Assembly: GCF_947498345.1 (NCBI RefSeq)
Contig: NZ_CANMJY010000009.1
Span: 62,001-126,000 of the forward strand
Direction of reading: 5' to 3'
From: an uncultured Winogradskyella sp.
GTDB lineage: Bacteria; Bacteroidota; Bacteroidia; Flavobacteriales; Flavobacteriaceae
DNA length: 64,000 nt
Shown here: piece after piece, positions 27,778-30,835 of the stretch
Numbering within the stretch: the stretch's first letter is position 1
Layout: each line of letters begins with the position of its first letter
Program-made: the position numbers and the translations under genes
The notes under the pieces: model-generated
Database searches by the model: none
Told to the model about the DNA's origin: nothing
Seen by the model: the letters and a program-made list of their open reading frames with translations, nothing else

Positions 27778-29676
27778 ATGAGTGATGCTTTAAAACATGA
27801 GTGTGGGATAGCACTTATTAGACTTTTAAAACCATTAGAATATTATAAAGAGAAATACGGAAGTGCATTTTATGGTGTTAACAAAATGTACTTAATGATG
27901 GAGAAGCAGCACAACCGTGGGCAGGATGGTGCTGGTTTTGCGAGTATTAAATTAGACACCAACCCAGGTGAACGCTACATTAGTAGAGTACGATCTATTG
28001 CTCAGCAACCTATACAAGATATTTTTTCGCAAATTAATGAGCGTATAAACCTAGAGTTAACACAACATCCAAACTATCAAGACGATGTCGCTTTGCAAAA
28101 AAGGCATATTCCCTATGTAGGAGAACTTTTATTGGGTCATGTTCGTTATGGCACTTTTGGAAAAAATAGTGTAGAAAGTGTTCATCCGTTTTTAAGGCAA
28201 AACAACTGGATGCACAGAAACCTCATTGTAGCGGGTAACTTTAATATGACCAATGTAAATGAGCTCTTTGATAACTTGGTTGAAATTGGACAACATCCTA
28301 AAGAAAAAGCTGATACTATTACAGTAATGGAAAAAATAGGTCATTTTTTAGATGATGCTGTTTCTAAAATATATAAAGACCTTAAAAGAGAAGGGTATTC
28401 AAAAATAGAATGCTCTCCTTTAATAGCTGAGCGATTAAAAGTGCACAAAATTTTAAAGCGTGCAGCAAAAAATTGGGATGGTGGCTATGCTATGGCTGGG
28501 TTACTAGGTCACGGTGATTCATTTGTACTGAGAGATCCTGCGGGTATTAGACCTGCTTATTATTATAAAGATGATGAGGTCGTTGTTGTCGCTTCTGAGC
28601 GACCAGTAATACAAACGGTATTTAATGTACCTTTTGAAGATGTTAAGGAGTTAGATCCTGGTCATGCTATTATTACAAAAAAGTCGGGCTCTACTGCTAT
28701 TAAAAAAATATTAGAGCCCCTAGAGCGAAAAGCGTGTTCGTTTGAACGCATTTATTTTTCTAGAGGAAGTGATGCAGAAATTTACGAAGAACGAAAAGAA
28801 CTAGGTAGATTATTAATGCCAAAGGTTCTTGAAGCTATAGATAACGATACAAAGAATACAGTATTTTCTTTTATTCCTAACACAGCCGAAACGTCTTTCT
28901 TTGGAATGATTGATACAGTAGAAGAGCACCTTAATCATAAGAAAACACAAGCCATACTTAAAGGACAAAGGGAGTTGTCAGCTAAGAAAGTTGAAGAAAT
29001 TTTATCCGAAAGACCAAGAATAGAAAAAATAGCAATTAAGGATGTTAAGCTAAGAACCTTCATTACTGAAGACAGTAGTCGAGATGATTTAGTTGCCCAT
29101 GTTTACGATGTTACATATGGTGTTATAAAACCTTCGGATAATTTAGTAATTATTGATGATAGTATTGTTAGGGGAACAACGCTAAAAAAGAGTATCATTA
29201 AAATGATGGATCGTTTAAATCCAAAGAAAATAGTTGTTGTTTCCTCAGCGCCTCAAATTCGCTATCCAGACTGTTATGGTATTGATATGGCTAATCTTGA
29301 AAGCCTTGTCGCCTTTAGAGCAGCTTTAGAACTTTTAAAAGACCATAATAAATACCATATTATAGAAGAGGTTTATCAAAAATGCTTAAAACAAGTACAT
29401 CTAAAAGATAAAAATGTTGTGAACTATGTTAAAGAGGTTTATGATAATTTTACGGATGAACAAATCTCAGGTAAGATTTCAGAATTGCTTAGCGATGAAG
29501 ATGTTAATGCAGAGGTGAAGATTATTTTTCAACCAGTAGATAATCTTCATAAGGCTTGTCCAAAAAACTTGGGCGATTGGTACTTTACAGGTAATTACCC
29601 TACAGTTGGTGGTAATCGAGTAGTCAATAGAGCATTTATTAATTTTTACGAAGGAAATAAAGAACGTGCTTATTAA
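27778..29676 (+). CDS. purF: Amidophosphoribosyltransferase, long Bacteroidota form
   Basis: PurF makes phosphoribosylamine from PRPP and glutamine, the first committed step of purine synthesis. The 632-aa protein has an Ntn glutaminase domain. The presumed nucleophile is Cys9 (KHECGIALIRLL), exposed after removal of an 8-residue propeptide. The domain also has EKQHNRGQDGAG and GHVRYGTFG. The PRPP site is NLVIIDDSIVRGTTLKKS. It is longer than the roughly 500-aa E. coli enzyme because of insertions in both domains. The start codon is 10 nt after a terminator, so transcription needs readthrough or an internal promoter. Confidence 0.94.
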   Translation: MSDALKHECGIALIRLLKPLEYYKEKYGSAFYGVNKMYLMMEKQHNRGQDGAGFASIKLDTNPGERYISRVRSIAQQPIQDIFSQINERINLELTQHPNYQDDVALQKRHIPYVGELLLGHVRYGTFGKNSVESVHPFLRQNNWMHRNLIVAGNFNMTNVNELFDNLVEIGQHPKEKADTITVMEKIGHFLDDAVSKIYKDLKREGYSKIECSPLIAERLKVHKILKRAAKNWDGGYAMAGLLGHGDSFVLRDPAGIRPAYYYKDDEVVVVASERPVIQTVFNVPFEDVKELDPGHAIITKKSGSTAIKKILEPLERKACSFERIYFSRGSDAEIYEERKELGRLLMPKVLEAIDNDTKNTVFSFIPNTAETSFFGMIDTVEEHLNHKKTQAILKGQRELSAKKVEEILSERPRIEKIAIKDVKLRTFITEDSSRDDLVAHVYDVTYGVIKPSDNLVIIDDSIVRGTTLKKSIIKMMDRLNPKKIVVVSSAPQIRYPDCYGIDMANLESLVAFRAALELLKDHNKYHIIEEVYQKCLKQVHLKDKNVVNYVKEVYDNFTDEQISGKISELLSDEDVNAEVKIIFQPVDNLHKACPKNLGDWYFTGNYPTVGGNRVVNRAFINFYEGNKERAY

Positions 29677-29706
29677 TTATCACTCAAATTAACGTTTAAT
29701 CCGAAA

Positions 29707-29744
29707 AAATAGGTATTTCACCCAAGAAATAGGTATTTCATCCA
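29707..29744 (+). repeat. Two tandem palindromic boxes upstream of the small-RNA genes
   Basis: AAATAGGTATTTCACCCA and AAATAGGTATTTCATCCA follow each other with a 20-bp period; each contains the palindrome AAATA-GG-TATTT. They end about 10 nt before the -33 region of the first small-RNA gene, as expected for a tandem activator or repressor site. Confidence 0.6.
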
Positions 29745-29783
29745 TTATATGTATTGTTTTAACAAATAACATTTACATTGGTA

Positions 29784-29857
29784 TCACCATAACATAAGTA
29801 GGTTAAGTTCATGGTAGATTTGGGGCAAAAAAAGGTGAACATTGTTCACCTTTTTTT
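29784..29857 (+). ncRNA. Candidate small RNA, copy 1 of a tandem pair
   Basis: A -7-like box TACATTGG (29774-29781) and a TTG about 17 nt upstream precede a transcript of about 72 nt. The conserved body contains ACCAT...ATGGT arms (potential stem) and GATTTGGGGC. It ends in a terminator hairpin ggtgaac/gttcacc with A7 and T7 tracts (29827-29857). The body is repeated 234 bp downstream with one substitution and one indel in about 57 nt. No conserved reading frame spans both copies. The long gap 29677-30226 otherwise holds only the second copy, tandem boxes upstream and the sod terminator. Confidence 0.7.
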
Positions 29858-30017
29858 ATAGATATAATTAAAGTAAAACTTTAAGTAAATTAAAAGTTGT
29901 TAGTCTTGTTTCATAGCTAAAGCTAGTTTAATCATAGAGGTTTCCACGCTTAGACTAATATATAGGTCGTTTATCCAATAAATTTACGAGTTAAAATAAT
30001 GTAAACTTATATTTGAC

Positions 30018-30091
30018 TCACCATAACATAAGTAGGTTAAGTTTATGGTAGATTTGGGGCAAAAAAGGTGAACTCTCTGTTCACCTTTTTT
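30018..30091 (+). ncRNA. Candidate small RNA, copy 2 of a tandem pair
   Basis: A perfect -7 box TATATTTG (30008-30015) directly precedes the repeat body. The terminator stem GGTGAAC/GTTCACC is identical to that of copy 1, but the loop differs (tctct against att), as expected when an RNA hairpin is conserved. The predicted transcript is about 70 nt. An ATGG-initiated frame is 8 codons here against 16 in copy 1 and runs into the terminator, so coding is unlikely. A further 7-bp hairpin (ATACCAG/CTGGTAT, about 30097-30119) lies just downstream without a T-tract. Confidence 0.72.
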
Positions 30092-30226: not shown

Positions 30227-30835
30227 TTATTTAGCTTCAGCATAACGTCTTTCAACTTCATTCCAATTGATTACTTTAAAGAAAGCGTCTATATAGTCAG
30301 GTCTTCTATTTTGGTAATTTAAGTAATAAGCGTGTTCCCAAACATCTAAGCCTAAAATTGGTGTGCCACCACATGTAACACCAGGCATTAATGGGTTATC
30401 TTGATTTGGCGTAGAACACACTTCTACTTTTCCTCCTTTATGTACACACAACCAAGCCCATCCAGAACCAAATTGTGTTGCAGCTGCCTTAGAAAAAGCC
30501 TCAACAAATGCCTCTTTAGATCCAAACTCAGCTTCTATGGCATCTTTTAAATCTCCTGAAAGATAACCTCGGTCTTCTGGATTCATCACTTCCCAAAACA
30601 ATGAATGATTGTAAAAACCGCCACCATTATTTCTCACACCAGAATTACTCATGTCTAGATTGGTCAAAATATCTTTAATAGATTTCCCTTCCAAATCTGT
30701 TCCTTCAATCGCTGCATTCAATTTTGTTGTATATCCATTATGATGCTTAGAATGATGTATTTCCATAGTGCGTGCGTCAATATGAGGTTCTAAAGCATCG
30801 TATGCGTATTTTAATTTTGGTAGTTCAAAAGCCAT
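30227..30835 (-). CDS. Superoxide dismutase (Fe/Mn family)
   Basis: The 202-aa enzyme dismutates superoxide to H2O2 and O2. Metal ligands are visible: His27 (MEIHHSKHH), His77 (FYNHSLFW), Asp164 and His168 (LDVWEHAYY). It has GSGWAWL and no signal peptide, so it is cytoplasmic. Iron, manganese or cambialistic use cannot be decided from these motifs. It is transcribed alone between a -7/-33 promoter and a bidirectional terminator. Confidence 0.97.

Follow-up and report, generated by a model that had tools for sequence, protein, structure and literature searches.

Two near-identical blocks, flanked by a purF-like and a superoxide dismutase gene in a Winogradskyella window (the 64,000-nucleotide stretch of DNA analysed here), are most probably two genes of one trans-acting, base-pairing small RNA (sRNA). 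The sRNA probably targets a gene that is not linked to it and encodes a peptide of about 26–45 amino acids. A sequence complementary to the sRNA is present in the leader of this gene, where it reaches as far as the start codon, and it recurs inside the first codons in one branch of the peptides (NLPE(Q)PT).

The probable tandem sRNA locus and its conservation

Both gene copies lie on the plus strand, copy 1 at 29786–29857 and copy 2 at 30020–30091. Each is predicted to yield an RNA of about 72 nt, with ends deduced from the sequence, and the core model matches them at G000:C9:91785-91832 and G000:C9:92019-92066, respectively. As an earlier note on this DNA had described, the blocks are spaced by 234 bp from start to start. 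They differ by a C/T exchange at 29810/30044 and in the length of an A-tract. The conserved upstream neighbour (27778–29676, plus strand) is a purF-like gene, for which Pfam supports a glutamine amidotransferase domain only. The conserved downstream neighbour (30227–30835, minus strand) encodes an iron/manganese superoxide dismutase with the Pfam domains Sod_Fe_N and Sod_Fe_C.

The earlier note had postulated that each copy is an sRNA gene with its own promoter and terminator, and comparative evidence supports this prediction. Boxes of the TAnnTTTG type are equally spaced in both copies and end four bases 5' of a conserved ACCAT (TACATTGG at 29774–29781 and TATATTTG at 30008–30015, both plus strand). 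These putative -7-type promoter boxes keep their position in relatives: TAnnTT[TAC] is present at the expected position in 174 of 229 distinct upstream regions, compared to a mean of 47.8 and a maximum of 60 after shuffling. Both copies end in a predicted intrinsic terminator (29827–29857 and 30061–30091, plus strand), a GGTGAAC/GTTCACC hairpin followed by a T-tract, in which the stems are the same and the loops differ. In all 229 distinct tails 3' of the core, an exhaustive stem finder, which allowed G-T pairs and was run with no shuffled control, detected a stem of 5 bp or more followed by a T-run, amounting to 64 different stems. Here, GC, AT, CG and TA pairs occur at the same positions, i.e., the stems vary and stay paired. 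The folding z-scores are -3.85 for copy 1 (0/200 shuffles as good) and -3.50 for copy 2 (1/200).

The 5' stem that had likewise been proposed is possible, with 11 predicted pairs, and gained nothing from covariation: no double compensatory change was observed in 30 sequences, while 12 sequence-pair cells were one-sided changes to G-U and 6 were broken or gapped. Stop codons are present in all three sense frames of the core, in agreement with the absence of a conserved protein frame noted before. The element thus appears to be intergenic and non-coding, with a promoter-like box and an intrinsic terminator, as is expected of an sRNA gene. Within the whole window, ARAGORN gave no match, nor did Rfam at its curated (gathering) thresholds; the relaxed Rfam matches that were viewed as alignments are supported largely by the terminator.

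The seed guessed in the earlier note, GATTTGGGGC, is supported, as its complement is found in the leader of a conserved gene. A second seed, CATAAGTAGG, had been missed; it is complementary to CCTACTTATG, which includes the start codon. In copy 1, seed 1 (CATAAGTAGGTTAAGTT, 29793–29809, plus strand) is complementary to AACTTAACCTACTTATG, including the start codon, and seed 2 (GGTAGATTTGGGGC, 29813–29826, plus strand) to GCCCCAAATCTACC of the target leader. The same complementarities are present for seeds 1 and 2 of copy 2 (30027–30043 and 30047–30060, plus strand).

Conservation of the block is far above chance. Within Winogradskyella, 45 of 46 columns of the sRNA core are invariant over 38 aligned copies, which represent a selection from the available copies of the genus. 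The copies of loci L003–L032 were extracted with an exact 25-base core, and a search allowing six edits had given identical sequences; each of these loci carries two copies, the first with C and the second with T (30/30). Six more diverged relatives were also compared: the order C, T is found in L083, L084 and L087, both copies of L085 have T, and L086 and L088 have a single copy each in the core search. A DNA search of 60 relatives gave a match in 36/36 genomes of the same genus; 35 of these 36 have the sRNA, since in G022 (78% complete) the only match falls on the target gene.

The earlier note had suggested searches of Rfam and of flavobacterial genomes; the former gave nothing at threshold, and the latter matched widely. 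Using a 48-position model (R1) at E ≤ 0.01 in Infernal, with stricter filters by which weak matches are lost, a match was obtained in 201/249 Flavobacteriaceae genomes and 191/235 genera. The best E value was 5e-8 or lower in 200 of the 201 matching genomes; the sole match of the remaining one, G074 (1.2e-5), may represent a target site. Genomes have up to 7 matches each, among which there can be target sites, as in G010. The fetched stretches contain one to five tandem copies, the maximum of five being reached at locus L212.

A pattern scan of genome contigs gave at least 115 stretches with 181 matches. Since the pattern fixes 25 bases, independent evidence is provided by the remaining positions only; directly after the pattern, GGGGCAAA is present in most of the 181 matches listed. 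Among the matches listed are the genera Aquimarina, Flavobacterium, Salegentibacter, Christiangramia, Kordia, Formosa, Lacinutrix and Dokdonia, unclassified Flavobacteriaceae, Flavobacteriales, Bacteroidetes or Bacteroidia, and one metagenome-assembled genome, Algicola sp. Across 30 diverse sRNA copies 35 columns are invariant. A PurF-like match is present in 95 and a superoxide dismutase match in 89 of 115 pattern-fetched stretches (at least 115 in all), and 9 of the 115 showed none of the sought neighbours. The synteny of the sRNA is fixed, which points to vertical inheritance. One of the 115 stretches, L177, was rejected as an sRNA, being the target gene. In a draw from the order, 29/196 genomes match the sRNA model, three of them outside the family (E 0.0048 to 0.0075), and in a draw from the phylum 17/198, two of them outside the family (E 0.0027 and 0.0056); these matches outside the Flavobacteriaceae are weak and are taken as chance.

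The peptide gene and further candidate targets

In the genome of the window, the peptide gene is located at C2:96488-96613 (L033) and encodes MKTTKSNLPEPTLNENVMFSNLKNTMRVISGVLKLTKKIFML. A coenzyme A transferase gene is located upstream of it, and an oligopeptide-type ABC transporter gene is convergent with it. Judged by eye, an apparent terminator hairpin takes its 5' arm from the codons of the last peptide residues (IFML) and its 3' arm from the end of the convergent transporter gene, and at some other peptide loci a different downstream sequence pairs with the same IFML codons. Searches of Pfam and NCBIfam with the 14 peptide members first aligned gave no match better than E 0.06. Dispersed BLAST matches, considered as extra copies of the sRNA, were rejected as such: they are antisense, and those that were parsed (16 of 25 loci) are the leader of the peptide gene.

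The sRNA has a conserved seed complementary to mRNAs encoded elsewhere, and its predicted pairing with the peptide leader of the same genome takes in almost its full length and reaches the start codon, with -44.1 kcal/mol. In a scan of start regions (3888 candidates, 0.85 Mb of this genome) the peptide gene ranks first with -40.5 kcal/mol, followed by a candidate with -28.6. The best values of three shuffled sRNAs were -25.2, -26.9 and -28.8 kcal/mol, and the peptide gene alone is clear of them. Mean energies over 61 distinct peptide loci, part of which were found via sRNA similarity and all of which passed an [NT]LP filter, were -36.1 at the leader site (shuffled sRNAs, -14.3), -30.0 in codons 2–18 (-13.5) and -17.0 in the region from -130 to -49 (-13.5). 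In all 61 loci, the leader window (-48 to AUG) surpasses the shuffled mean by 8 kcal/mol or more, which fits a control of translation. A fairer set is given by 41 distinct loci from protein searches, to which a further one, L259, was not added, and of which G000 and G010 were already known; here, a shuffled sRNA was as good in 0/820 cases for the leader site and in 1/820 for the coding site. The coding site spells NLP(E/K)(Q)PT.

The sRNA and the peptide gene also occur together. With the first protein model, the peptide gene was found in 87/249 genomes of the family, all 87 of which have an sRNA match; with a wider model it was found in 134/249, with an sRNA match in 132. The peptide matches of the two exceptions have E values of 0.0062 and 0.0093, and at E < 1e-5 the sRNA is matched in 90/90 genomes. 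The hypergeometric P values of 6e-11 (first model) and 4e-16 (wider model) ignore shared ancestry and are therefore inflated. A few of the listed peptide matches are incomplete or interrupted by an in-frame stop.

On protein level, the last six codons of the peptide are constrained (pN 0.075, pS 0.558; 52 ORFs, some of which are the same locus fetched twice, 1326 pairs). The middle of the peptide is mildly constrained, with pN 0.422 and pS 0.654, and the resulting pN/pS of 0.645 has to be read with pS nearly saturated. A second branch comprises peptides of 29-amino-acid type (e.g., MKHLLRSVHNTLHLLKNVLYVAKKVFLLM); its leaders read TCCCAAAT...AACTTAACCTACTTATG and show complementarity to seed 1 as well as seed 2. 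Leaders of a third branch (MEAQMNQ type) are mostly weak in complementarity. Of the weak peptide matches examined, 17/42 have a leader z below -3, and several of the others possibly do not belong to the family.

Searching the genome of the window for the complement of seed 1 pointed to the leader of a gene for a CAP-domain lipoprotein (C5:4895; Pfam CAP), the lipoprotein assignment being judged from the signal sequence. Among the leaders of this gene from 30 of the 37 Winogradskyella genomes with the protein, the genome of the window included, CCCAAA or ACCAAA is present in 30/30 and CCTACTTATG in 21/30; six of the nine leaders lacking the latter have CCTACATTATG. The pairing energy in the genome of the window, -25.9 kcal/mol, does not exceed that of the best shuffled sRNA, and it is the conservation, not the energy, on which this mRNA is considered a likely further target.

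Genome-wide, the target words show no enrichment, so that the regulon is probably small. In the genome of the window, CCCAAATCTACCA with up to two mismatches was found 129 times compared to 165 for a reversed control, and the seed-1 complement with up to three mismatches 21 times compared to 36, both counts including the two sRNA copies. CCTACTT stands directly 5' of ATG at 2 of 1212 starts (716 plausible genes), and five permuted words do so at 0 to 1. For CCCAAA, 16 of the 1212 starts have the word upstream, compared to 0 to 10 for five other words. Possible further targets, each in one genome, are L060 (a 75-amino-acid membrane protein), L342 (177 amino acids), C2:244311 (56 amino acids) and C2:354403. 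Two small CxxC proteins with an FGHNY motif were also observed, one encoded at C9:45590 (L431; 79 amino acids, DUF1660), with CCTACTT directly 5' of ATG, and one downstream of C9:51749 (L361), with ACCTACTTC just 3' of ATG; both are possible targets as well.

Proposed mechanism and alternative readings

Transcription, repression, direction of control and a shared regulator are inferred here from sequence, conservation, complementarity and co-occurrence. The sRNA would fold into a weak 5' hairpin whose loop exposes the central part of seed 1 (CAUAAGUAGG...), followed by seed 2 (GGUAGAUUUGGGGC) in single-stranded form and the terminator. It would pair through both seeds with leaders of the type CCCAAAUCU...ACCUACUUAUG, cover the start codon and block the initiation of translation. 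This would take place on ribosomes that, according to the excerpted text of PMC9976891, do not recognize Shine-Dalgarno sequences in Bacteroidia. The main target would be the mRNA of the unlinked peptide gene, and the NLPE(Q)PT branch would offer a second binding site within the first codons, which itself encodes the NLP motif. A further mRNA with a similar leader would be that of the CAP-domain lipoprotein in Winogradskyella. Taken together, a tandem trans-acting sRNA that represses the translation initiation of the peptide and the CAP-lipoprotein is considered the probable reading, with good confidence. The complementarity as such would be compatible with control in either direction, negative or not, or with the peptide mRNA acting as a sponge.

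Both partners may in addition be under a common regulator. Upstream of copy 1, 20-bp direct repeats, GTATTTCACC / GTATTTCATCC (AATAGGTATTTCA), are located at 29701–29744 (plus strand) and represent a candidate operator that the sRNA may have in common with the target genes. The element TTCCACGCTTAGACTAATATATAGGTCGTTTATCC upstream of copy 2 (29942–29976, plus strand), which is alike in the Winogradskyella rows listed, is possibly an operator of the same kind. The word [GC][TC]ATTT[CT][AG][TC]C, picked after viewing the sequences, many of which are closely related, lies upstream of 46/71 peptide genes (base-shuffle mean 0.6) and of 51/141 first sRNA copies (mean 0.7), and is rare before later copies (7/94). 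By eye, it is often repeated about 20 bp apart, and it occurs twice upstream of the CAP-lipoprotein gene. A related word, counted over the whole genome of the window, was no more frequent than its reverse (17 compared to 23). These observations suggest that the sRNA and the peptide gene, and perhaps the CAP-lipoprotein gene, share a regulator, in which case repressor and target would be produced together.

A somewhat unlikely alternative is that of an unlinked pair resembling type I toxin-antitoxin systems, with a small, amphipathic, membrane-active peptide and the multi-copy sRNA as its antitoxin. The peptide is small (under 60 amino acids) and the leader of its mRNA is complementary to the sRNA, the predicted leader pairing is at least as extended as the 18 nt given for ZorO-OrzO in the excerpts of PMC3919570, and up to five tandem sRNA copies occur (L212). 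Furthermore, seven of nine peptides have a net charge of +4 to +6 and a hydrophobic moment of the C-terminal 22 residues above that of shuffles (p 0.007–0.04), but the two MEAQ-type peptides are not amphipathic (p 0.41 and 0.22) and have a net charge of -1. The genes are also not adjacent: on one and the same contig they lie far apart in G088 (C1:65856 vs C1:252311), G200 (C1:851939 vs C1:1030519) and G213 (C1:980517 vs C1:1456747). Fixed sRNA synteny, which suggests vertical inheritance, and the likely second target, the CAP-lipoprotein, also speak against a toxin-antitoxin pair.

For the coding site, it can tentatively be imagined that the binding site was copied into the peptide coding sequence, so that pairing dictates NLP(E/K)PT and the mRNA is target, sponge and message at once. 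That the peptide mRNA is chiefly a sponge, its tandem sites titrating the sRNA away from its real targets, appears unlikely. In its favour, AAATCTACC-like sites (one substitution, -150 to +60) occur twice in 42/61 loci, three or more times in 14/61 and once in 5/61, the coding site is near-complete in several loci, and there is a candidate antisense RNA in G028 (L050). Against it, the constraint on the C-terminus of the peptide acts on protein level, and the leader window surpasses the shuffled mean in every one of the 61 loci. The L050 stretch itself (G028:C58, plus strand, about 1440–1530), observed in one genome, contains two sRNA-complementary sites followed by a hairpin and T-run of its own, and is possibly a sponge or an antisense RNA.

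The FopS/GibS family of Bacteroides was examined on account of a local sequence resemblance (UUCAUGGU...AGAUUU, 21.8 bits), and both it and the sRNA described here are multicopy and directed at translation starts (for FopS/GibS, as given in the excerpts of PMC11697453). Nevertheless, it is very unlikely that the sRNA is a flavobacterial branch of this family. The score is far under the gathering score of 56 bits, and the model exceeds its cut-off in 0/198 genomes of the phylum draw, with 1/14 in a control under the stricter filters by which weak matches are lost. In addition, it matches on the sRNA in 0/10 Flavobacteriaceae genomes having both kinds of matches, and the FopS-model matches in the genome of the window are on C6 and C8. 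In another family of the same order, a FopS-model match of 43.9 bits (cut-off 56) was observed at G053:C1:2970447-2970515 (L279), which may be distantly related to FopS. The tandem duplication, with one to five copies per fetched stretch, could also indicate a mobile repeat or palindromic element that lacks an RNA function; this reading can practically be dismissed, because synteny is fixed, promoter box and terminator are kept, the copy-specific base (C/T) is kept in 30/30 loci, and searches gave no plasmid match and five phage records matching the terminator part alone.

Relation to known systems

An sRNA that is strongly conserved in most searched genera of the family, and that has a conserved target, would provide a directly testable entry to RNA control in a setting where ribosomes work without Shine-Dalgarno recognition. 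In addition, a small-protein family without a convincing Pfam or NCBIfam match has been revealed, and the site in its coding sequence looks like a case of RNA pairing shaping a protein sequence.

In the main texts of the open-licence PMC literature, including text searches with short pieces of the core sequence, no earlier description of the sRNA was found. It probably represents a new family of trans-acting sRNA with an unusual target. Rfp18 of Flavobacterium psychrophilum is likewise a conserved flavobacterial sRNA, reported in a study of 85 new RNAs; in the excerpts of that study it has a strong structure, pairs through its third stem-loop and targets metalloproteases (PMC9723704). The sRNA described here differs from Rfp18 as described in structure and targets.

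FopS and GibS of B. thetaiotaomicron (RF04319, RF04182) resemble the sRNA in being short RNAs of Bacteroidota that possess a terminator besides a 5' seed and pair with translation start regions, and FopS is multicopy as well. In contrast, sequence, neighbourhood and targets differ, the targets of FopS being mostly SusC-like PUL genes according to the excerpted text of PMC11697453, and the sRNA described here has two seeds.

The pair of sRNA and peptide gene has close counterparts in ZorO-OrzO and the similar, unconventional type I toxin-antitoxin pairs TisAB-IstR and ShoB-OhsC, where a small sRNA also pairs with the leader of an mRNA encoding a peptide of less than 60 amino acids; for ZorO-OrzO, homologous sRNA copies (OrzO, OrzP) are present, too. 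In type I pairs such as ZorO-OrzO the sRNA gene adjoins the toxin gene, as stated in the excerpts of PMC3919570 and PMC8309996. Here, on the contrary, the partners are unlinked, the predicted binding site extends to the start codon and is present again in the coding sequence, and a further target is likely.
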